DNA from: Porphyrobacter sp.
GTDB taxonomy: Bacteria; Pseudomonadota; Alphaproteobacteria; Sphingomonadales; Sphingomonadaceae
Length of the DNA stretch: 64,000 nt
Direction of reading: 5' to 3'
NCBI GenBank assembly: GCA_027533455.1
Contig: JAPZUC010000011.1
Location: 1 to 64,000, forward strand
In this document: positions 810 through 48,557 of the stretch, piece after piece
Position numbering within the stretch: position 1 is the first letter of the stretch
Layout: every line of letters begins with the position of its first letter
Notes under the pieces: generated by a model
What the model saw: the letters and a program-made list of their open reading frames with translations, nothing else
Database searches by the model: none
What the model was told of the DNA's origin: nothing
Position numbers and translations under genes: made by a program

Positions 810-1136
810 ATGTCCGACGTCAACGCGCGTATTTCCGATCTCGTCACCAGCAATGATGTGGTGCTGTTCATGAAGGGCACGCCTCTCTTCCCGCAATGCG
901 GCTTTTCCAGCCGTGCCATCGCGATCCTCGATCACTGCGGTGTCGCCTTCGAAAGCGTCGACGTGCTGCAGGACATGGAAATCCGACAGGGCATCAAGAA
1001 CTTCTCAGACTGGCCGACGATCCCCCAGCTTTACGTGAAGGGCGAATTCGTCGGCGGCAGCGATATCATGATGGAGATGTTCGAAGCGGGCGAGTTGCAG
1101 CAGCTGCTGGATCAGAGCGGCGTCGCGAAAGCCTGA
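810..1136 (+). CDS. grxD: Monothiol glutaredoxin (CGFS type)
   Basis: A 108-residue class II glutaredoxin. The active-site motif CGFS is near residue 30, preceded by VLFMKGTP, and the glutathione-binding [18 protein letters not shown] segment follows at about residues 65-82. These proteins ligate a [2Fe-2S] cluster with glutathione and transfer it to acceptors, commonly with BolA, whose gene is directly upstream. The track starts at a TTG at 774. I prefer the ATG at 810 because it gives the standard MSDVNARI start and normal length. A strong hairpin terminator lies about 230 bp downstream. Confidence 0.93.
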
Positions 1137-1648
1137 TGTTCCGCAGCCCCTGCGGGCTGCGAAATCCTCGCTCATGCGTCCTTCGGACGCGTCGCTGCGG
1201 GCGGCCGGTCGGCCTTGCGGTCGCTGACGCGACCGAGACCAGCACTACTTTTCAATTTAGCGCCAGTCGGCCCATAGGGCCGCAAGCGCGACTGCGCGCC
1301 GGCCGGTCAGGCCGGAAGCCAAGGCGGACGGACGTCCGCCGCCCGGCGTCTGAGGGCAAAAGCAAAAAAGCGCTCCGCAGGACCAGTGCGGAGCGCTTTT
1401 GTTTTTCGGGGAGGCGCAACCCGGAGACCAGGAAGGGTCACACCTCTTGTCGAAGACCATTGGGACCGCAGCGTATTATGCACACCCCGTGCCAAAACTG
1501 GAAAAGCACGGAATTCCGCCATTTTCTACGTCTTGGTTGATCGGCTTTAACTGCAGTTTGTAAAGCATCCCGACAGGTCCTCTTCAAACCGGCAGGCTTT
1601 CACCTTGCCCCTTGGCAAGCGCCTGCCCTGCGGCCATCCTTTGCCGCA
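1137..1648. other. 512-bp intergenic stretch with dyads and a terminator
   Basis: No gene seen. The left half (1142-1340) holds several short perfect dyads: CGCAGCCC/GGGCTGCG at 1142-1161, GCGTCC/GGACGC at 1176-1190, and GGTCGC/GCGACC near 1220. The same style of GC-rich palindromes recurs after the TonB gene near 33.2 kb. The right half holds the terminator at 1366-1400 and then about 250 bases that must contain the promoter of the Nudix gene. Confidence 0.6.
1366..1400. terminator. Rho-independent, probably bidirectional terminator
   Basis: A 14-bp perfect stem, aaaagcgctccgca and tgcggagcgctttt, closes a 7-base loop and is flanked by A and T runs. It can end transcription from the zeta-bolA-grxD operon; the symmetry would also allow function from the other side. 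Confidence 0.9.
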
Positions 1649-2431
1649 ATGAGCACCGATTCAACGCCCCTGGGCATTCCCGCCGCGACCATCATCATTT
1701 TCCGCCATGCGCCCGATCGCGGCGCACCCGAAGTGTTGATGACCGTGCGCTCGCGCAACATGACCTTCGCGGGGGGCATGGCGGTGTTCCCGGGCGGGCG
1801 GGTCGATCCCGAGGACTATGCTCTCGCCGAGGCAGTCGCGGCCGATCACGGTCTTGCGCATGATGAAGCCGCCCACCAGATCGCCGCCGTGCGCGAGACG
1901 CTGGAGGAGACCGGCCTTGCGCTCGGGCTGGCGGGCGAGATCAATGCTGCCAGCGCCGGGGAGGCGCGCCTGATGCTTGGTCAGACCGGCGCGCTGGCCC
2001 CCGTGCTCGACGCCTTCGGCTGGCGGCTCGATCTTGCACAGATTACCCCGTTTGCGCGGTGGTTTCCCAAGAACGAGGCGATCGCGCGGGTCTATGACAC
2101 CCGCTTCTACCTTGCCGATCTGGGCACGGGCGCGGTCGACGTGTCGATCGACCAGTCGGAAAACACCCACCTGTTCTGGACCACGGCGCAAGGTGCGCTC
2201 GATGCGGCGGAACGCGGCGAGATCAAGCTGATCTTCCCCACCCGCCGCAACCTCGAACGCCTCGCCCTGTTCGCCAGTTTCGCCGAAGCCAAGGCCCAGG
2301 CCGAAGCAATCCCGGTGCGCACAATCATGCCGCAGGTGGTAGAACAGGACGGCAAGCCGTGGCTGACGATCCTTGCCGACGCTGGCTATCCCGTCACCGG
2401 AGAACTGCTGGAGACGGTCGCCCGGGGCTGA
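1649..2431 (+). CDS. Nudix hydrolase (NUDT19-like)
   Basis: A 260-residue Nudix protein. The Nudix box is recognisable as FPGGRVDPED followed, after an insertion of about 20 residues, by AVRETLEETGLAL (about residues 78-90); the REtLEEtG core carries the Mg-binding glutamates. The long spacer between the glycine part and RExxEE, plus the arginine/phosphate strand VLMTVRS, resembles the NUDT19/RP2-type branch, often annotated as CoA or nucleoside diphosphate-X hydrolases. The substrate cannot be told from sequence. It stands alone between two long intergenic stretches. The ATG at 1649 gives the plausible start MSTDSTPLGIPAATIIIFR. Confidence 0.85.
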   Translation: MSTDSTPLGIPAATIIIFRHAPDRGAPEVLMTVRSRNMTFAGGMAVFPGGRVDPEDYALAEAVAADHGLAHDEAAHQIAAVRETLEETGLALGLAGEINAASAGEARLMLGQTGALAPVLDAFGWRLDLAQITPFARWFPKNEAIARVYDTRFYLADLGTGAVDVSIDQSENTHLFWTTAQGALDAAERGEIKLIFPTRRNLERLALFASFAEAKAQAEAIPVRTIMPQVVEQDGKPWLTILADAGYPVTGELLETVARG

Positions 2432-2907
2432 TCCAGCGGCAAAGCGGCGTGCGCCTGTGCCGTTGCATGATAGCGGCATCATGAAACGCCCGGCCATACT
2501 GCGCTCGGTGGAGTGGCAGTAAGCGTGGTGATGGGCCACGTCTTTGAGGCAGATGGGCTGCTCGGGAAGGAGTCCTTCAGTGTGGTAGAATCATTACAGC
2601 CCGCAATATGTGTGCGCGCCGCAAGTATTATTGCTTTTTTTCATTGACCCTCGCGCACCTCCCACGCAAGATTAGACCTCTCGGTTGGACGCGAAGGGTC
2701 GTGTCCTGCTGACGCTCGGATACTCTCGGATACGGGTGCCAACATCGCACCGGCTGCCGAGGGCATGATGTTATATCGACTCTTCAAAGCAGTAGCCTCG
2801 GAAAGGAGGCGGGCCGCGGTGAGATCGAAATCCATTTACCGGCGGGGCGAATGCACCCGGCGGAAAGGCCTATTCTGGTCGCAGAAAAATAGAAAAAAGG
2901 TTCAGCA
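2432..2907. other. 476-bp intergenic stretch
   Basis: No credible gene. The 64-aa minus ORF at 2641-2835 lacks family features. The last 80 bases are relatively A-rich (agaaaaatagaaaaaaggttcagca) and form the leader of the TonB receptor gene. I see no terminator or clear operator. Confidence 0.5.
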
Positions 2908-5646
2908 ATGCGAAAGATCAACACCGTGCTTCAGTCTGCATCGCCGTTCGCGCTCGGCGCAGCGCTGATGGCAATGGGCGCCGCGCCTGCCCATGCCGCC
3001 GAGGCTGCCGAAAGCGAGCAGCCCGCCATCGCCATCACCCAGGAAGCCGCGACCGAAGTCGCCGATGATGTTGTCGATAGCGGCCAGGTCCTGATCGTCA
3101 CCGGTACCCGGCGCGCCAATCGCACCGTTTCCGACAGCCCCGTGCCGATCGACGTGATCCCCGCCGAACAGCTCCAGCGTTCAGGCCTCGTGGAAACTGC
3201 GCGCGTGCTGCGCGATCTCGTGCCCTCGCTGAACTTCCCCCAGCCCTCGATCACCGATGGCACCGACGCGATCCGCCCGGCGACGCTGCGCGGCCTCGGG
3301 CCTGACCAGACGCTGGTGCTGATCAACGGCAAGCGCCGCCATGTCGCTGCCCTGCTCAACATCAACGGCTCGGTCGGACGCGGCTCGACCGCGGTCGACT
3401 TGAACCAGATCCCCTCGTCCTCCATCGGCCGCGTCGAAGTGCTGCGCGATGGCGCGGCAGCGCAGTATGGTTCGGACGCGATCGCCGGCGTGATCAACTT
3501 CCAGCTCAACGATGCGCGTAAGGGCGGACGGTTCTTCGTCAACTACGGCGGCTACAACACCCGCATCGAGGGCGTGAAGGAAGTCACTGGCGTCAATGGT
3601 ACCGCCGGCCAGACCCCGACATTGACCGCCGACGGCGTGCTCCAGCTCAACAACACCGGCAAGGACCTCAAGGTCACCGATGGCGAAGTGCTGACCGTGG
3701 GGGGCAATATCGGCCTGCCGCTCGGCGCTGAGGGCTTCATTAACATCACCGCCGAATATCGCGACCGCAACGACACCAACCGCACAGGCTATGATCCGCG
3801 GCGCAACTATTCGCAGAGCGGCGCTCTGGACGCCCGCGAGCTGACCCTCGACCGCCGCAACCACCGCTATGGCGACCCCAAGACCGAAGATCTCAACATC
3901 GTGGTCAACATGGGCATGCCGCTTGCTGAGCAGGTGAGCTTCTACGCCTTCGGCAGCTACGGCACCCGCGATGCGGAATCCGCCGGCTTCTACCGCCGCG
4001 CGGCCGACAACCGCAACGTGACCGCGATCTATCCCGACGGCTTCCTTCCGCTGATCAACACCGACACCACCGACTTCGGGATTGTCGGCGGGCTCGAGGG
4101 CGATTTCGGCGGCTGGAACTGGGACCTTTCGATGTCCTACGGCGAGAACGAGACCGATTTCCTCATCACCGAAACGCTCAACGCATCGCTCGGCGCGGCG
4201 AGCCAGACGGAATTCGAGGCGGGCGGGATCGCCTATAGCCAGCTGGTCTCCAACCTCGATATCAGCCGCGATATTGATGTCAGCGGGATCGAGGCGCTGA
4301 CTGTCTCCTTCGGTGCCGAATGGCGGCGCGAGGAATACCAGCTCACCGCGGGCGAGCTGAACAGCTACATCGCCGGACCGGTGCTCGTCGGGACCAACAA
4401 CCCCTTCATCACCGGCGCGGGCGCGACCGCCTTTGCCGCGCCCGGCAGCCAGGTGTTCCCCGGCTTCCAGCCGCGCATCGGCGGGGTCGACGTGACCACC
4501 CCCCACAGCCGCGAGAACGTTTCGCTCTATGCTGAAATCGATGCCGACATCAGCTCGGGCTGGAACATCCAGGCGGCGGGCCGCTTCGAGGATTACACCG
4601 ACTTCGGCTCGACCCTGAACGGCAAGCTGGCGACCCGGCTGGAAATCGTCGACGGCTTCGCTCTGCGCGGTGCGCTGTCGACCGGCTTCCGCGCCCCCTC
4701 GCTCCAGCAGCAGTTCTTCGCTGCGGCGGCGACCAACAACATCGGCGGCGTTCTCGTCGATGCGGTGACCCTGCCGGTCAGCAACCCTGTCGCCGTGGCG
4801 CTCGGCGCGACCCCGCTCAAGGCCGAGAAGTCGGTCTCGTGGTCGGCAGGCGCGGTGTTCGACATGGTCGACGGGCTCAACTTCACCTTCGATTACTACC
4901 AGATCGATATCGACGACCGGATCGTGCTGAGCGACAACCTGACCGCCAGCCGCGATGCGACAGGGGCGCCGACCGGCACCAACCCGGGCCGCGGAATTGC
5001 GCAGATCCTCAATGATGCCGGCTTCACCAGCATCTCGGCGGCGCGGTTCTTCTTCAACGGCATCGACACCCGCACCCGCGGCTTCGATGCCATTGCGACC
5101 TACCGCACCGGGCTCGGCGACTTCGGCTCGCTGTCACTGACCGCAGGCTACAACTGGAACGATATCGACATCACCGGACGCCGGACCAACCCGGGCAGCC
5201 TCGCGCAGGTGCCGGGGATCGACCTGTTCGGCCGACTTGAATCGCTCCGGATCGAGCGCGGCCAGCCCAAGGATCGCGTCAACCTCGGCGCGGACTGGGA
5301 GTGGAACTGGCTGAGCGCATCGCTGCGCACCAACCGCTTCGGTGAAGTGTTCTCGGCCGGTGCCTCGCCGATCAACGACGTGCTGCTTGAGCCGCGCTGG
5401 ATCACCGACCTCGAATTCCGCATCCGTCCGCAAGGCGGCATGGCAGAAGGTCTGGAACTGGCAGTCGGCGCGAACAACCTGTTCGACCAGTACCCGACAG
5501 TGAACCCCACCGGACGGGGCACCGATCCGGTCACCGGCAATCCGGGCAACCTGTCGGTGAACAACTACTTCCTGCCATTCTCGTCCTTCTCGCCTTTCGG
5601 CTTCAACGGACGGTTTCTCTATGCGCGTCTGAGCTACGCGTTCTGA
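2908..5646 (+). CDS. TonB-dependent outer-membrane receptor
   Basis: A 912-residue receptor. It starts with a signal peptide (about residues 1-30, ending AHA), then a TonB-box-like acidic stretch with ILIVTGTRR (the track shows VLIVTGTRRANRT). A plug domain follows, with the typical LRGLGPDQTLVLINGKRRH and VEVLRDGAAAQYGSDAIAGVINF segments (about residues 125-200), and then a 22-strand barrel ending in the aromatic terminus LSYAF. It imports a ligand across the outer membrane using TonB energy. In sphingomonads this size class often handles siderophores or plant-derived compounds; the substrate is not evident. No exbB, tonB or transporter gene is adjacent. A GC-rich hairpin follows the stop. 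Confidence 0.92.
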   Translation: MRKINTVLQSASPFALGAALMAMGAAPAHAAEAAESEQPAIAITQEAATEVADDVVDSGQVLIVTGTRRANRTVSDSPVPIDVIPAEQLQRSGLVETARVLRDLVPSLNFPQPSITDGTDAIRPATLRGLGPDQTLVLINGKRRHVAALLNINGSVGRGSTAVDLNQIPSSSIGRVEVLRDGAAAQYGSDAIAGVINFQLNDARKGGRFFVNYGGYNTRIEGVKEVTGVNGTAGQTPTLTADGVLQLNNTGKDLKVTDGEVLTVGGNIGLPLGAEGFINITAEYRDRNDTNRTGYDPRRNYSQSGALDARELTLDRRNHRYGDPKTEDLNIVVNMGMPLAEQVSFYAFGSYGTRDAESAGFYRRAADNRNVTAIYPDGFLPLINTDTTDFGIVGGLEGDFGGWNWDLSMSYGENETDFLITETLNASLGAASQTEFEAGGIAYSQLVSNLDISRDIDVSGIEALTVSFGAEWRREEYQLTAGELNSYIAGPVLVGTNNPFITGAGATAFAAPGSQVFPGFQPRIGGVDVTTPHSRENVSLYAEIDADISSGWNIQAAGRFEDYTDFGSTLNGKLATRLEIVDGFALRGALSTGFRAPSLQQQFFAAAATNNIGGVLVDAVTLPVSNPVAVALGATPLKAEKSVSWSAGAVFDMVDGLNFTFDYYQIDIDDRIVLSDNLTASRDATGAPTGTNPGRGIAQILNDAGFTSISAARFFFNGIDTRTRGFDAIATYRTGLGDFGSLSLTAGYNWNDIDITGRRTNPGSLAQVPGIDLFGRLESLRIERGQPKDRVNLGADWEWNWLSASLRTNRFGEVFSAGASPINDVLLEPRWITDLEFRIRPQGGMAEGLELAVGANNLFDQYPTVNPTGRGTDPVTGNPGNLSVNNYFLPFSSFSPFGFNGRFLYARLSYAF

Positions 5647-7379: not shown

Positions 7380-8390
7380 ATGGCCATCATCAAGGTCGAA
7401 GACATTGCGCACGTCCGCTTTGCAGCGCCCGACCTTGCGCTGATGCGCGGCTTCCTCGAAGATTTCGGCCTTGCCTGCTTCGAAGAGGGCGGGCGGCTCT
7501 ACGGCAAAGGCGGCGACGGGCGGCCTTTCGTCCATGTAACCGGGCCGGGGGCAGCAGAATTTCTCGCGGTCGGGCTACGCGCCGCCAGCATTGACGACCT
7601 GGAGACCCTCGCCGCCCATGAAGGCGTCGCGGTCCAGCCGCTGAACGAGCCCGGCGGCGGCATGGTCGTGCGCCTCACCGATCCGGACCGTTACTGCGTC
7701 GAGGTGGTCGCGGGTCAGCACTGCGAAGCTCCTGCCCCCTGCCCGCCCCCGCGCTTCAACTCCGCCGCCGACAAGCCTCGCCAGCGTGAAATGATCCGTC
7801 TGGAACCATCGCCCGCGCACGTGCGCCGCATCGGTCATGCGGTGCTGAAGGTGAGCGACTTCCGCGCCTCGGAACGGTGGTGGAAGGAGCGCTTCGGCTT
7901 GCTCACCTCCGACGAGATCGAGGCCGCGCCCAACGTGCCTCTAGGCGCCTTCATGCGCTGCGACCGCGGGGACGTGCCGTCCGATCACCACACCATCTTT
8001 CTTGCCCAGCTGCCGGGCGCGCTCGGGTTGCTCCACGCCGCCTTCGAAGTCGAAAGCCTCGATGACCTGATGCTCGGCCACGAATATCTCAAGGCCCGCG
8101 AGCGCGAAGCCGCCTGGGGCGTAGGGCGGCACATTATGGGCAGCCAGATCTTCGATTACTGGAAGGACCCCTTCGGCAACGAGCTGGAGCACTGGACCGA
8201 TGGCGATCTGTTCACCGCTGCCGATCCGCCTGCAAAGCAGACCATGCAGGCGCTGCTTGCGGTCCAGTGGGGCGCCCCGCACCCGATGTTTGCCGGCACA
8301 ATGGCCCCGCCGCCGGGTCTCGTCGCTTTCGTCACCGCTCTGCAATTGCGCGTGAAGCGCCTGTTTTCTCGCACACCCAAGGAAGCCTGA
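7380..8390 (+). CDS. VOC family protein, extradiol (catechol 2,3-) dioxygenase-like
   Basis: A 336-residue protein with two vicinal-oxygen-chelate modules. The first starts IAHVRFAAPDLALMRGFLEDFGL and ends DRYCVEVVAG (about residue 115). The second starts RRIGHAVLKVSDFRASERWW (about 140) and ends PFGNELEHWTDGD (about 275). Candidate iron ligands are visible in the C-terminal module, as in type I extradiol dioxygenases: His in GHAVL, His in DHHTIFL and Glu in NELEHW. It would cleave a catechol ring next to the hydroxyls. It is the first gene of an operon with an FAH-family hydrolase (3 bp gap) and a flavin hydroxylase, as in meta-cleavage pathways. The substrate is unknown. Confidence 0.85.
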   Translation: MAIIKVEDIAHVRFAAPDLALMRGFLEDFGLACFEEGGRLYGKGGDGRPFVHVTGPGAAEFLAVGLRAASIDDLETLAAHEGVAVQPLNEPGGGMVVRLTDPDRYCVEVVAGQHCEAPAPCPPPRFNSAADKPRQREMIRLEPSPAHVRRIGHAVLKVSDFRASERWWKERFGLLTSDEIEAAPNVPLGAFMRCDRGDVPSDHHTIFLAQLPGALGLLHAAFEVESLDDLMLGHEYLKAREREAAWGVGRHIMGSQIFDYWKDPFGNELEHWTDGDLFTAADPPAKQTMQALLAVQWGAPHPMFAGTMAPPPGLVAFVTALQLRVKRLFSRTPKEA

Positions 8391-8393
8391 CCG

Positions 8394-9233
8394 ATGAAAC
8401 TCTGCACCTTCACCCATGACGGCAAGACCCGCACCGGCATCGTCGTTGGCGATACCGTTATCGAAACCGGCGTGCCCGGGACGATGATCGACCTGATCCG
8501 CGCTTGGGACACGTTGAAACCCGGCTTCGAAGCGAAGGCGGCGGCCGGAACGGGGATCGCACTTTCAGAGGTCAGGCTAGAAGCGCCGGTGCTGCGCCCG
8601 GGAAAGATCTTCGCCATCGGCCTGAACTATGCCGATCACATCGCCGAAAGCGGCCTCGGCACGCCCGAACGGCAGGTGTGGTTCACCAAGGCGCAAACCA
8701 GCGTCAACGCGCCGTATGACCCGATCCTGATTGCGCGCGGCACCATGACGCCCGACTACGAGGCCGAACTGGTCGCGGTGATCGGCAAGGGCGGCAAGCA
8801 TATCACCGCCACCGACGCGCCCGCAGCGATCTTCGGCTATTGCGTCGGCAACGACATGACCGAGCGCATGTGGCAGCACGCCGTGCCGCAGTGGTCGCTG
8901 GGCAAAAGCTTCGACACCCACGCGCCTATGGGCCCGTGGATCGTCACCGCCGACGAGCTGGGCGACCCGCATGATCTCGGCATTCGCTGCTATGTGAACG
9001 GCGAGGAGCGGCAGAACTCGAACACGCAGCACCTTGTCTACAACGTCTGGAAGCAGGTCGAGCATCTCTCGGTCGGCATGACGCTGGAGCCGGGCGATTG
9101 CCTGTTCACAGGCACCCCCGGCGGGATCGGCGCGGCGATGGACCCGCGCCAGTTCCTGAAGGCAGGCGATGTGGTCCGCACCGAAATCGATCGCCTCGGC
9201 CATATCGAAGGCACGATGGTCGCGGAAGGCTGA
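8394..9233 (+). CDS. Fumarylacetoacetate hydrolase family protein
   Basis: A 279-residue FAH-fold enzyme. It has the short N-terminal domain and then the catalytic core beginning KIFAIGLNYADHIAESG (about residue 65), metal-ligand region TPDYEAELVAVIGKGG (about 117-132), GYCVGNDMTER, KSFDTHAPMGPWIVT and the C-terminal GDCLFTGTPGGIG signature. Such proteins hydrolyse or decarboxylate C-C bonds of ring-cleavage products (acylpyruvases, 2-hydroxyhepta-2,4-diene-1,7-dioate isomerases, fumarylpyruvate hydrolases). Between an extradiol-type dioxygenase and a hydroxylase it probably processes the cleaved ring. Start ATG is 3 bp after the previous stop. Confidence 0.92.
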   Translation: MKLCTFTHDGKTRTGIVVGDTVIETGVPGTMIDLIRAWDTLKPGFEAKAAAGTGIALSEVRLEAPVLRPGKIFAIGLNYADHIAESGLGTPERQVWFTKAQTSVNAPYDPILIARGTMTPDYEAELVAVIGKGGKHITATDAPAAIFGYCVGNDMTERMWQHAVPQWSLGKSFDTHAPMGPWIVTADELGDPHDLGIRCYVNGEERQNSNTQHLVYNVWKQVEHLSVGMTLEPGDCLFTGTPGGIGAAMDPRQFLKAGDVVRTEIDRLGHIEGTMVAEG

Positions 9234-9237
9234 GGCG

Positions 9238-10269
9238 ATGGTTCGCAAGCTCCTGTTCGGCCTCACGGTGCTGCTGGTGGCGGGGACGGCCCTTGCCTAT
9301 GCCCAGCGCGACGCGCTGCTCGGGATGGCGATCCGCCAGCGTGTACAACAAGGCCCGGACATGGGCTTCGCCAAGGACCATGATGGCATCAAGGTGCTGA
9401 TCTGCGGCACCGGATCGCCCGAGGTGAGCTCGGCCCGCGCGCAGGCCTGCACGCTGGTTGCGGCGGGCGGCAAGCTGTTCCTGTTCGACGTCGGCGACGG
9501 CAGCGTGCGCTCGCTCGCCGCCTCGCGCATTCCGGTCAATGATCTCGAGCGGGTGTTCGTTACCCATTTCCACTCCGACCATTTCGGCGATTTGGGCGTC
9601 CTGATCAACGCCGGGTGGATTTGGGGCCGCGAGACCCCGCTGGAAGTGCAGGGGCCGGTCGGCATGGCTGGCGTCATCGCGGGTTACGAACAGGCCTATG
9701 CGCTTGATGAAACCTATCGCAGCGCCAACATGCCCCACCTTGCAGAACGCCGCGCGGTGGCCCGGGCTGTGCCGCTGGAGATCGCCTTTGCCGAAGGTGC
9801 GCGCGTTGTGCGGGTCTACGATATGGACGGGGTGACGATCGATGCGGCCCCGGTCGCGCACGATCCGGTGCGCCCGGCGCTCGGCTATCTGCTGCAATAC
9901 AAGGGCCGCAAGCTGTTCATCAGCGGCGATACCGAAGTGAGCCCGGTTAACTTGCCCGCGATGCAGGGGGCCGACATGGTCGTCCACGAATCCTACGCAG
10001 GGCACATGGTGCGCCGCGCGATCCCAGAGATGCGGCAGCTCGGCATGGAGTTTCACGCCCGCGTGGCAGAGCGCACCATTCCCTACCACGCCGACAATAT
10101 CGCTTTGGCCAAGCAGGCACAGGCGGCAGGGGTGAAGCAGCTCGTCCTAACCCACCTCATCCCCTACCCTGAAAATGCAGTGGTCCGGGCGATGTACACA
10201 GATGGGATGGGCGATCACTTCAAAGGCGCGATCACCGTAGCCGAAGACGGCATGGTGCTGGCGTTCTGA
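9238..10269 (+). CDS. Exported MBL-fold metallo-hydrolase
   Basis: A 343-residue metallo-beta-lactamase-fold protein, starting at the ATG 4 bp after the FAH stop. The track's longer version reads through the FAH gene. The N-terminus VRKLLFGLTVLLVAGTALAYAQ is a signal peptide or membrane anchor. The metal site is HFHSDHFGDLG (about residues 110-120), with later ligands in SGDTEVS and the C-terminal LTHLIPYP. Family relatives are ribonuclease Z-like or arylsulfatase-like hydrolases that are often periplasmic. An exported hydrolase inside a ring-cleavage operon is unusual; it might release an aromatic alcohol from an ester or sulfate before uptake, but this is inference. Confidence 0.88.
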   Translation: MVRKLLFGLTVLLVAGTALAYAQRDALLGMAIRQRVQQGPDMGFAKDHDGIKVLICGTGSPEVSSARAQACTLVAAGGKLFLFDVGDGSVRSLAASRIPVNDLERVFVTHFHSDHFGDLGVLINAGWIWGRETPLEVQGPVGMAGVIAGYEQAYALDETYRSANMPHLAERRAVARAVPLEIAFAEGARVVRVYDMDGVTIDAAPVAHDPVRPALGYLLQYKGRKLFISGDTEVSPVNLPAMQGADMVVHESYAGHMVRRAIPEMRQLGMEFHARVAERTIPYHADNIALAKQAQAAGVKQLVLTHLIPYPENAVVRAMYTDGMGDHFKGAITVAEDGMVLAF

Positions 10270-10291
10270 TCTGGTGGTGATGGGGGCAACG

Positions 10292-11749
10292 ATGAATGGG
10301 TTTGATTGCGATGTCCTGATCATCGGCGGAGGGCCGACAGGGGTGACGCTGGCGAGCCTGCTGGCGAAACGCGGAGTCAGCGTCATCGTCGCGGAGAAAG
10401 AGGCAGGCATCTTCCCTCTCCCCCGTGCGGCGCATATCGACCACGAAGGAATGCGGATCCTGCAGGACGCGGGTGCGGCCAAGGCGGTGATATCGACCAG
10501 CCGCCGCGCTAATCGCTATGAGTTCCGCAACGCCAAGGGCAAAGTGCTGTTGTGTTTCGACGGGGCCGAAGGGATCGGCGCGGGCGGATGGCCGGTCGCC
10601 AACATGATCCACCAGCCTTCAGTTGAAGCCGCACTCAGGGCCTCGCTCGCCGAACGCGCGCCCGAAGCGCTTCGCGGCGGATGGGAGATGGTTGCCTTCA
10701 CACAGGACACCCGGGGCGTCACCGCCCGTTTCGCAACCCCGCAAGGCGAGCGCTCCCTTCGGGCCCGCTGGCTGGTCGGGGCAGACGGCGCCCGCAGTCC
10801 AGTCAGGAAGGCCAGCGCCATCACGTTCGAGGATCTCGGCTTCGAGGAGCCATGGCTCGTCGTTGACGTGCTGGTCGATGATCCAGCGCGCTTGCCCACC
10901 GCTAACCTGCAGATCTGCGACCCCGCGCGTCCCACCACCTGCGTCCTCATGGGCGAAGGCCGCCACCGCTGGGAGTTCATGATCCTGCCCGGCGAGACCC
11001 CCGAGGCCATCAGCGCTCCCTCCTCGATGGAGCGGCTGCTCGCGCCGTGGAACGTAACGGGCGCGGTCAGGATCGAGCGAACCGCCGTATATACCTTCCG
11101 CGCCTGCATCGCAGAGCAATGGCGCAAGGGGCGCGTGCTTCTAGCCGGAGACGCCGCGCACCAGACCCCGCCATTCGCGGGGCAAGGCCTGTGTTCGGGG
11201 CTGCGGGATGCAGCGAACCTTGCATGGAAGTTGGCCATGTCGGTCAAGGACGAGGCCGATGCCGCGCTGCTCGACACTTACCAACCCGAACGGGCGCCGA
11301 ACCTGCGCGCGACGATCGACATGGCGATCATGATGGGCCGCATGGTGTGCACGACCAGCAGGGTCGGCGCCGCGTTGCGTGATGCTAAACTCGGCCTTGC
11401 CCGGATGCTCGGCAAGCTCCCTGATGGCCCGCCCGCCTATCCGCCGCTGGCAACAGGGGTAATCATGGCCGGTTCACCAGCAGCGGGAAGCTATTTCCCG
11501 CAAGCGGTGGCAAGCAACGGCGCCCGCCTTGATGATGTTCTGGGCCCGGATATGTGGCTCATAAGCCGCAGCTCTCTGGACGAGCGCACGTTCGTGCCCT
11601 TTGCCGAATATTTGCGGCACTGGCTAGATCGCCATCAGGCAGAGGCGGTGCTGGTGCGACCGGACCGCTATGTCTTCGGAACAGGCGCAGCGAACGACCT
11701 GAGACAACAATGGTCCGCTGCCCTTGGAACAGGGTTGGTGAGCCGGTAG
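10292..11749 (+). CDS. FAD-dependent aromatic hydroxylase (MhpA-like)
   Basis: A 485-residue group A flavin monooxygenase. The FAD-binding Rossmann motif VLIIGGGPTGVTLASLLAKRG is at about residues 7-27, a DG-type motif RWLVGADGARSPVRK near 165, and the second FAD motif VLLAGDAAHQTPPFAGQGLCSGLRDAANLAWKL near 290. These are the signatures of 3-(3-hydroxyphenyl)propionate or phenol hydroxylases, which add a hydroxyl to a phenolic ring with NAD(P)H and oxygen. It would generate the catechol used by the VOC dioxygenase at the head of the operon. Start chosen at the ATG at 10292, 9 bp after a TGGGGG purine stretch; the GTG at 10274 is an alternative. Confidence 0.88.
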   Translation: MNGFDCDVLIIGGGPTGVTLASLLAKRGVSVIVAEKEAGIFPLPRAAHIDHEGMRILQDAGAAKAVISTSRRANRYEFRNAKGKVLLCFDGAEGIGAGGWPVANMIHQPSVEAALRASLAERAPEALRGGWEMVAFTQDTRGVTARFATPQGERSLRARWLVGADGARSPVRKASAITFEDLGFEEPWLVVDVLVDDPARLPTANLQICDPARPTTCVLMGEGRHRWEFMILPGETPEAISAPSSMERLLAPWNVTGAVRIERTAVYTFRACIAEQWRKGRVLLAGDAAHQTPPFAGQGLCSGLRDAANLAWKLAMSVKDEADAALLDTYQPERAPNLRATIDMAIMMGRMVCTTSRVGAALRDAKLGLARMLGKLPDGPPAYPPLATGVIMAGSPAAGSYFPQAVASNGARLDDVLGPDMWLISRSSLDERTFVPFAEYLRHWLDRHQAEAVLVRPDRYVFGTGAANDLRQQWSAALGTGLVSR

Positions 11750-46277: not shown

Positions 46278-46436
46278 ATGAACTACGGCTGGATCGAGAT
46301 CGTGCTGTTCTATGGCGGTGCGATCAGCTTCGGCCTGTGGCAGTTCTGGAAGATGGACAGGATGCTGAAAAAGACGCGCGCCGAGAAGGCGGCGAAGGAC
46401 GCAACGGAGCGGGAAGATAACCCGCCTGCCGCCTAA
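46278..46436 (+). CDS. Small single-helix membrane protein downstream of bchO
   Basis: A 52-residue ORF starting 4 bp after bchO (MNYGWIEIVLFYGGAISFGLWQFWKMDRM). One transmembrane helix (about residues 6-24) is followed by a lysine/glutamate-rich cytoplasmic tail. Tight spacing and clean N-out/C-in charge layout argue that it is real. I believe short proteins of this type occur after bchO in related phototrophs but cannot check. Function unknown. Its TAA stop overlaps the TAG stop of the convergent tetR gene. Confidence 0.65.
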   Translation: MNYGWIEIVLFYGGAISFGLWQFWKMDRMLKKTRAEKAAKDATEREDNPPAA

Positions 46437-47023
46437 AGCCGCGCCGTGAACCGCCCCAGCAGCCGCAGCGTCTCGTAGGCGGAACCGGGCGGCGTGGTGC
46501 CTGCAAGTTCCAGCGACACTGCGCCATGGAGCGCCGACCAGATCAGCCCTTCCATCGCCCGCGCCTCGGCCTCGGCCATGCCAGCGCGGACAAGCCCGTC
46601 GCCATAAGCCGACAGCGTCGCCCGCGCGCGCGCCACCGCCCGGCCCAGCGGGATGTCGCCGCCATCCTCGTGCTGGTGGAGGTCGAACATGAGGCGGTAG
46701 GTGTTGGCGTTGGCGAGGGCGAAATCGATATAGGCGCGCCCCGCCGCCCCTGCCTTCGCGTCAGCGTCACCCGGGGTCGTCGCGTAGGCGTCTTCAAGCA
46801 GTACGGCGAAGCGTTCGAACCCCCGGATACGCACCGCGACAAGGATATCCTCACGGCTTGCGAAATAGCGATAGGGGGTCATCGGGCTCACACCGAGCGC
46901 GGCGGCGATCTGGCGCATCGAGACATTGTCCGCGCCGTTGCGGGCGAACAGCTCCGCCGCGACGTCGCACACCTTCGCCTTGAAGGCGCCAAGATCATCT
47001 TCGGTGAGCGGGCGAGACATCAA
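46433..47023 (-). CDS. TetR family transcriptional regulator
   Basis: A 196-residue TetR protein. Helix-turn-helix region VCDVAAELFARNGADNVSMRQIAAALGVSPMTPYRYFASREDILVAVR (about residues 17-65), then a C-terminal domain of the WHG type (YIDFALANANTYRLMFDLHQHED). It is divergent from the flavoprotein gene at 47160 with tandem TTACAGTGTAA sites between them, so it probably represses that gene and itself. Placed between bchO and crtC, but nothing shows it regulates photosynthesis genes. Start may be the first (47023) or second (47020) Met. Confidence 0.88.
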   Translation of the reverse strand: MMSRPLTEDDLGAFKAKVCDVAAELFARNGADNVSMRQIAAALGVSPMTPYRYFASREDILVAVRIRGFERFAVLLEDAYATTPGDADAKAGAAGRAYIDFALANANTYRLMFDLHQHEDGGDIPLGRAVARARATLSAYGDGLVRAGMAEAEARAMEGLIWSALHGAVSLELAGTTPPGSAYETLRLLGRFTARL

Positions 47024-47057
47024 GCAAGCCTATCCCTTCTCGCTTGACCTCGCAATC

Positions 47058-47081
47058 TTACAGTGTAAATTTACAGTGTAA
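47058..47081. promoter_or_regulatory. Tandem operator TTACAGTGTAA x2
   Basis: Two exact copies of the near-palindrome TTACAGTGTAA (47058-47068 and 47071-47081) sit 13 bp apart in the tetR/flavoprotein divergent gap, 35 bases upstream of tetR and 79 upstream of the flavoprotein ATG. Confidence 0.75.
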
Positions 47082-47159
47082 GCAACTATTCGATCCATTC
47101 TCTTGCGCGAGATGACGCAAGGGGCGAGGGAATGGCTTCACCGAATTGCGGGGAACTCC

Positions 47160-48557
47160 ATGCGCACGATCGAAACCGACTACCTGATCATAGGCGCAGG
47201 CGCCGTTGGCATGGCCTTTGCCGACACGATCCTCGCCGAAACTGACGCCCACGTGACTATCGTCGATAGGCAGGCGCGGCCCGGCGGGCATTGGAACGAT
47301 GCCTATGGCTTCGTCGCGCTGCACCAGCCCTCGGCCTTCTATGGGGTCAATTCGCTGAGCCTCGGCGAAAATCGCAAGGACGCCCACGGGGTGAACGAGG
47401 GGCTCTATGAACTGGCCTCGGGCGCAGAAGTCTCGGGCTACTATGACAAGGTTATGCGCCAGAGCCTGCTGGCAAGCGGGCGGGTCACCTATCTGCCGAT
47501 GACCGAACACCGCGGCGCGGGCCGGGTAGTGTCGCTGATGTCGGGCGAGCAGACCTCTGTAACGGTGCGCCGCAAGACGGTCGAGAGCGCTTACAGCAGC
47601 CCGGTCATTCCGGCCAACCACACCCCGCGCTTCAGCGTGAGCGAAGGCGTTCGGCTGGTGCCCCCGGGCGCGCTGCCGCGCCTGTGGCTGGAGCCCGCCC
47701 GGCCAGAGCGTTTCGTGATTCTCGGCGGCGGCAAGACCGCGATGGATGCGGTCGGTTGGCTCTTGGCGATGGGCGCGCCCCCGCAAGCGATCCAGTGGGT
47801 GCGCCCGCGCGACAGCTGGCTGATCGACCGTAGCGGCACCCAGCCCGGCGCAGAGTTCTTCGATGAAGTCTTCGGCCGCCAGCTCGCCCAGATGCGCGCG
47901 TTTGCCGAAGGCACCTCGCCTGAGGATATTTTCAGCAGGCTCGAAGCATCAGGCGTGATGCTGCGGATCGACCCGTCCGTGACGCCGACCATGTTCCACT
48001 ACGCCACGATCTCGCAAGGCGAGGTTGCGGCGCTGCGGCAGGTGACAAACGTGGTGCGCAAGGGCCGGGTCACTGCCCTGACCAGCGAGGCGATCGTTCT
48101 CGAGCACGGCACCGAACCCGCGGTGCCGGGGGCGCTTTACATCGATTGCACCGCATCGGCAGTCGAACCGCGCGCGCCCCAGCCGATCTTTGAAGGCGAT
48201 CGCATCGTTCCTCAGTTGGTGCGCGTGCCCCAACCGTGCTTCTCGGCCGCGCTGGTCGCCTTTGTTGAGGCCCATTACGAAGGCGATGACGCCAAGAATG
48301 CACTGTGCCGCACTGTGCCCTTCCCGCATTCGCTGAAGGATTACCTCACCACCAACATCGTCAACATCATGAACCAGGGCGCGTGGTTCGGGGACGAGCG
48401 GCTGGGTGCATGGATCCGCCAGAGCCGGCTCGACGGGTTCGGCAAGATCGCTGCCGGGGTCGACCGCAGCGATACGGCGCGGGTGGCGATGCTGCAGGAG
48501 CTACGCGCGACCGGCCCCGCGGCAGTTGCCAACCTGATGCGAGTGGCGGCCGCTTGA
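47160..48557 (+). CDS. FAD/NAD(P)-binding oxidoreductase, unknown substrate
   Basis: A 465-residue flavoprotein starting at the ATG at 47160 (MRTIETDYLIIGAGAVGMAFAD). The N-terminal Rossmann motif GAGAVGMAFAD (about residues 12-22), ARPGGHWNDAYGFVALHQPSAFYGV, and a second dinucleotide motif VILGGGKTAMDAVGWLL (about 185-201) suggest binding of both FAD and NAD(P)H, as in flavin monooxygenase-like families. No carotenoid-desaturase signature. It is controlled, on position, by the divergent TetR. It converges on crtC with a 10-bp gap. In this cluster it is out of place; it may oxidise a lipid, quinone or xenobiotic. I cannot assign a pathway. Confidence 0.8.
   Translation: MRTIETDYLIIGAGAVGMAFADTILAETDAHVTIVDRQARPGGHWNDAYGFVALHQPSAFYGVNSLSLGENRKDAHGVNEGLYELASGAEVSGYYDKVMRQSLLASGRVTYLPMTEHRGAGRVVSLMSGEQTSVTVRRKTVESAYSSPVIPANHTPRFSVSEGVRLVPPGALPRLWLEPARPERFVILGGGKTAMDAVGWLLAMGAPPQAIQWVRPRDSWLIDRSGTQPGAEFFDEVFGRQLAQMRAFAEGTSPEDIFSRLEASGVMLRIDPSVTPTMFHYATISQGEVAALRQVTNVVRKGRVTALTSEAIVLEHGTEPAVPGALYIDCTASAVEPRAPQPIFEGDRIVPQLVRVPQPCFSAALVAFVEAHYEGDDAKNALCRTVPFPHSLKDYLTTNIVNIMNQGAWFGDERLGAWIRQSRLDGFGKIAAGVDRSDTARVAMLQELRATGPAAVANLMRVAAA

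Follow-up and report, generated by a model that had tools for sequence, protein, structure and literature searches.

Sequence comparison suggests, with a probability of about 75%, that the TetR-family repressor and the FMO-like flavoprotein encoded between bchIDO and crtC of Porphyrobacter sp. form a self-contained TetR/oxidoreductase accessory pair, which comes from an Erythrobacter/Porphyrobacter pool and occupies a variable junction, and which is not a part of the photosynthesis cluster. Since relatives keep the pair elsewhere and carry unrelated genes in this spot, it is most likely passenger cargo in a variable gap. This reading is carried by the architecture of the pair, the conservation of its putative operator and the decay of that operator where TetR is missing, the near-exclusive location of the operator motif, the several genomic sites of the pair, and the variability of the junction, all of which are seen directly in the sequences compared.

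The features of the locus are listed in Table 1, in positions of the window, i.e. the whole stretch of 64,000 nucleotides that was analysed. The upstream neighbours encode BchI, BchD, and BchO (TIGR03056), and the downstream neighbours encode CrtC, CrtD, and then BchX, so that the ORFs, the Pfam matches, and the neighbouring genes agree with the preliminary description of a divergent TetR and a 465-aa flavoprotein between bchIDO and crtCDF. The small ORF and the TetR gene have overlapping stop codons, and the stop codons of the flavoprotein gene and crtC are convergent and 10 bp apart, indicating that the pair is tightly fitted between two convergent operon ends. The GC contents of the TetR and flavoprotein genes (0.68 and 0.66, respectively) are the same as those of bchO and crtC, and the composition therefore shows no sign of recent foreign origin. 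No recombinase-like ORF was seen between bchO and crtC in an ORF reading of the window, and the pair was presumably moved by ordinary recombination.

Table 1. Features of the TetR/flavoprotein locus
Feature	Position	Strand	Remarks
TetR-family repressor gene	46433..47020	-	195 aa from ATG; Pfam TetR_N + TetR_C_33
FMO-like flavoprotein gene	47160..48557	+	465 aa; two dinucleotide-binding motifs
Candidate composite operator, TTACAGTGTAA-AT-TTACAGTGTAA	47058..47081	.	two 11-bp palindromes, 13 bp apart
Promoter-like sequence of the flavoprotein gene	47044..47071	+	TTGACC - 16 - TAAATT; consensus scan; overlapped by the operator
Small ORF 3' of bchO, outside the pair (left flank)	46278..46436	+	52 aa

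The small ORF on the left flank begins MNYGWIEIVLFYGG..., and similar DNA follows bchO in two other genomes (G029 and G025). It has no Pfam or NCBIfam match, and may encode a small protein of the photosynthesis cluster that has escaped annotation.

The repressor carries both domains of its family according to Pfam: the N-terminal helix-turn-helix, TetR_N (PF00440, E = 1.7e-13, above the curated cut-off), and the ligand-binding C-terminal domain, TetR_C_33 (PF13305, E = 4.2e-15). In addition, many TetR structures were matched weakly, the best being 3on2 (E = 6e-10).

In the gap between the two genes, TTACAGTGTAA occurs exactly at 47058-47068 and 47071-47081, as the preliminary description had stated, and these two sites are also the only TTACANTGTAA sites in the 2.88-Mb genome. 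With one mismatch allowed, four matches to TTACAGTGTAA were found on both strands of the window, compared to 0.06 expected by chance. The two sites form a single 24-bp composite operator, TTACnnnGTAAATTTACnnnGTAA, directly after a conserved CTTGAC. When nine TetR-bearing species were aligned, CTTGAC followed by TTACnnnGTAAATTTACnnnGTAA proved common to all of them, with CTTGAC, TTAC, GTAAATTTAC, and GTAA as invariant blocks and with the variation confined to the three-base spacers and the sequence outside. In G017, which retains the flavoprotein (82% identity), the place of TetR is empty and the operator sites are degenerate. These comparisons provide good evidence that the conserved composite site would be the TetR operator.

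The location of the motif points in the same direction. Across ten pair-bearing genomes, 13 of the 14 TTACANTGTAA sites lie in the gap between tetR and the flavoprotein gene. The remaining site, with part of the same composite form (GTAAACTTTACAGTGTAA), precedes a TetR paralogue of 33% identity by 40 bp, and this paralogue is divergently oriented to an SDR-like gene. The conservation of the operator, the loss of the sites without TetR in G017, and the same motif at the TetR paralogue suggest a local, autoregulated repressor-enzyme pair, and the TTACANTGTAA motif may mark a TetR subfamily that controls redox enzymes. The paralogue and its SDR-like partner lie at L092:1227-2785 of G066. A wider TTACANTGTAA regulon was considered and rejected: among the outside sites that were read, one adjoins this TetR paralogue, and the three in L096-L098, near which no recognisable TetR was found among ORFs of at least 150 aa, were taken as chance. 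In L006, the gap between the TetR and a distant flavoprotein copy contains another tandem motif, consisting of ATAACACnGTTAT-like palindromes, indicating that TTACANTGTAA does not hold for every copy.

The promoter-like sequence of the flavoprotein gene is weak evidence when taken alone, as the consensus scan found one such sequence compared to 0.5 expected. The operator starts 8 bp past TTGACC and spans the spacer and the -10 position, an arrangement that fits repression by blocking RNA polymerase. TetR dimers would most likely bind the 24-bp composite operator, just upstream of tetR and over the flavoprotein promoter, and this binding would silence both tetR and the flavoprotein gene. A small ligand would free TetR from the operator, and the FMO-like flavoprotein would then oxidise the ligand or a relative of it. 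In this scheme, we infer TetR binding and repression, the ligand, the use of NAD(P)H, and the reaction type. The arrangement resembles other divergent TetR/oxidoreductase pairs with TetR_N and TetR_C_33 domains in its divergent layout, its palindromic operator over a shared promoter region, its single enzyme target, and its likely autoregulation. Its double-palindrome operator TTACnnnGTAAATTTACnnnGTAA sets it apart: the literature searched yielded no description of this operator for a TetR, nor of a TetR operator given as TTACANTGTAA or either of its two variants.

For the flavoprotein, Pfam identified an N-terminal dinucleotide-binding fold (NAD_binding_8, E = 9.6e-7). GAGAVG at residue 12 and GGGKTAMD at residue 189 indicate two dinucleotide-binding domains, as in class B monooxygenases (FMO and BVMO), and a GGxW motif is likewise shared with these enzymes. 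The AlphaFold2 model (pLDDT 88, pTM 0.88; residues 44-53 and 148-152 poorly predicted) was compared with the PDB using Foldseek, and the top matches were DiatB, cyclohexanone monooxygenases, and FMOs, with TM scores of about 0.4-0.55 and identities of 10-16%; the match to the FMO/BVMO fold is partial, with a TM score of about 0.5 and a high rmsd. Whereas the motifs GxGxx(G), GGHWN(D/A), GxGKTxxD, and DCTA are conserved in 25 of 25 homologues, the FxGxxxHxxx[FYW] fingerprint of FMOs and BVMOs is absent from the window protein and from all 24 other homologues, which makes monooxygenation uncertain. A redox-active cysteine pair (CxxC or CxxxxC) as in pyridine nucleotide-disulfide oxidoreductases is also absent from the window protein, and was seen in one of the 25 homologues. 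The modelled fold thus resembles that of a class B flavoprotein monooxygenase, and we do not file the protein as one. Foldseek against viral structures yielded two matches at E <= 0.001, with TM scores below 0.45, and a viral origin was rejected.

Distant flavoprotein homologues adjoin a TetR and a DUF2855 gene (L006), a DUF2855 gene (L042), or an ADH-type reductase gene (L044), and these neighbours suggest that a small organic molecule is metabolised by redox reactions. The flavoprotein family may have DUF2855 as a functional partner; in the genome-wide search, the two are adjacent in only a part of the genomes covered, and here DUF2855 is encoded on a different contig. In L006, TetR, flavoprotein, and DUF2855 form one unit (815-3994) in a more distant genome. 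The literature searched contained no mention of DUF2855. The substrate class of the flavoprotein is a guess from its fold and context.

TetR orthologs, with 67-79% identity, were found in 12 other genomes of the genus, i.e. in 13 of 114 with this one, and only in this genome does the pair lie beside bchO. Of the earlier suggestion of an inserted detoxification module, the insertion is supported, as relatives have other genes or nothing at the junction; detoxification or catabolism of a small ligand would be the most likely role of the pair. The preliminary description had also proposed checking whether other clusters carry the pair at the same place, and they do not, although the pair itself exists in relatives. 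Seven pair loci were read, revealing six flanking contexts, one of which is shared, by L038 and L004 (G017) only. TonB-receptor-like genes adjoin the pair in L089 and L090, and an AraC-type regulator flanks it in L031. Most of these names come from ORF translations read by eye from the ORF lists, and the AraC-type regulator is confirmed by Pfam. The LOG-like gene flanking the pair in L038 and G017 was considered as an alternative home, and was rejected because it lies here on contig C15 without the pair.

Erythrobacter/Porphyrobacter genomes contain flavoprotein relatives with 79-87% identity, and those with about 44-61% occur in other members of the group, other alphaproteobacteria, and some betaproteobacterial records. 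A homologue from a betaproteobacterial MAG (L057:9949-11364) looks frameshifted. The best flavoprotein relative is that of E. colymbi (87%), which is also the closest species for bchO (85%) and crtC (93%). Because the divergence of the flavoprotein is about that of the core cluster genes, these comparisons suggest that a gene long present in the accessory pool of the genus was relocated, and not that it was acquired recently. The closest TetR is that of L038 (79%), whereas the identity to the E. colymbi TetR is only 69%, and this mismatch between the two genes may reflect uneven rates or recombination between them.

The junction itself is convergent in relatives, with bchO and the small ORF on one strand and crtC on the other. 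Where one contig carries both genes, they are about 0.2 kb apart in six genomes, and in eleven others the distance from bchO to crtC ranges from 1.3 to 6.4 kb. The cargo is a PhyH-type dioxygenase in G029, and, as read by eye, a PAP2-like membrane protein in G001, a 533-aa membrane protein in E. colymbi (G025), an aminotransferase-like and a GNAT-like ORF with another ORF in G061, an aromatic-catabolism-like set in G066 and G017, and a P450-like ORF in G062, giving at least six different cargo types. The bchO-crtC junction is thus variable, a statement that covers this junction alone and implies no ranking against the cluster's other junctions. PhyH was rejected as an ancestral occupant, since among the genomes searched it lies at the junction in G029 only and elsewhere in the others.

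In the window, the ORFs at 7380 and 10274 (7380-11749, forward strand) resemble the aromatic-catabolism-like genes of the G066 and G017 junction, and they are located about 34 kb before bchO. According to the available text of PMC4919336, Erythrobacter photosynthesis clusters have a near-identical gene order with isolated inserted genes. The present case is similar in that non-photosynthesis genes lie within an otherwise conserved cluster, and differs in its position, as the convergent bchO-crtC junction, with at least six cargo types here, is not among the insertions named in that text.

The position between bchO and crtC raises the question of whether the flavoprotein is an unrecognised pigment-modifying enzyme, acting in a carotenoid or bacteriochlorophyll side branch under ligand control and recruited into the photosynthesis cluster. 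The preliminary description had offered this possibility while stating that neither gene belongs to the known bacteriochlorophyll or carotenoid pathways, and the latter statement stands: no pigment-enzyme family is matched, the flavoprotein matching only generic Rossmann families and, very weakly, an ArsO-like N-terminal region. bchO is present in all 13 genomes with a TetR ortholog, leaving a small opening for a link to phototrophy. However, bchO is present in 85 of the 114 genomes of the genus, 72 of which have no TetR ortholog, and given this frequency and shared ancestry, the co-occurrence is little evidence for such a link. Furthermore, in the 12 other carriers bchO is on a different contig or separated from the pair by about 198 kb or more (nearest in G107), and flavoprotein homologues of about 46-58% identity occur in genomes without a bchO match at E <= 1e-35. 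The gene downstream of the pair in E. ramosus (L037:11398-12465, reverse strand) reads by eye like a BLUF/B12-binding photoreceptor; this neighbourhood would fit a pigment enzyme and is possibly a coincidence. A pigment role of the flavoprotein is thus unlikely, and its recruitment as a side-branch enzyme very much so, as the pair has no positional tie to photosynthesis genes elsewhere. A broader proposal, in which the junction would be a safe harbour for repeatedly exchanged cargoes and the fingerprint-less FMO-like subfamily would act on a TetR-sensed, pigment- or light-derived oxidised lipid, is a long shot.

It is also hardly likely that the effect is positional, with the derepressed flavoprotein transcript running antisense into crtC and modulating carotenoid synthesis without the enzyme acting on pigments. 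The close convergence of the two genes would allow such read-through, and the scan found no terminator-like element between them, but the scan yields no more terminator-like sites than it does in shuffled sequences and is blind to Rho-dependent ends, and the coupling is not conserved, since other species have other genes or nothing at the junction. The least probable explanation is a misjoining of the pair into the cluster during assembly, for although the arrangement is confined to this genome, a 17-contig draft, both flanks run on within one 140-kb contig, no repeat was noted at the joins in the ORF and sequence reading, and the same junction holds other genes in other genomes.

Overall, the reading of an accessory pair in a variable junction weakens a candidate "missing pigment gene", as the pair is positionally independent of the photosynthesis genes. 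Because the bchIDO-crtC junction holds different accessory genes in different species, neighbourhood there is no guide to photosynthetic function. The conserved operator and the natural loss of TetR in G017 make this a convenient system for testing an uncharacterised pair of regulator and flavoenzyme.
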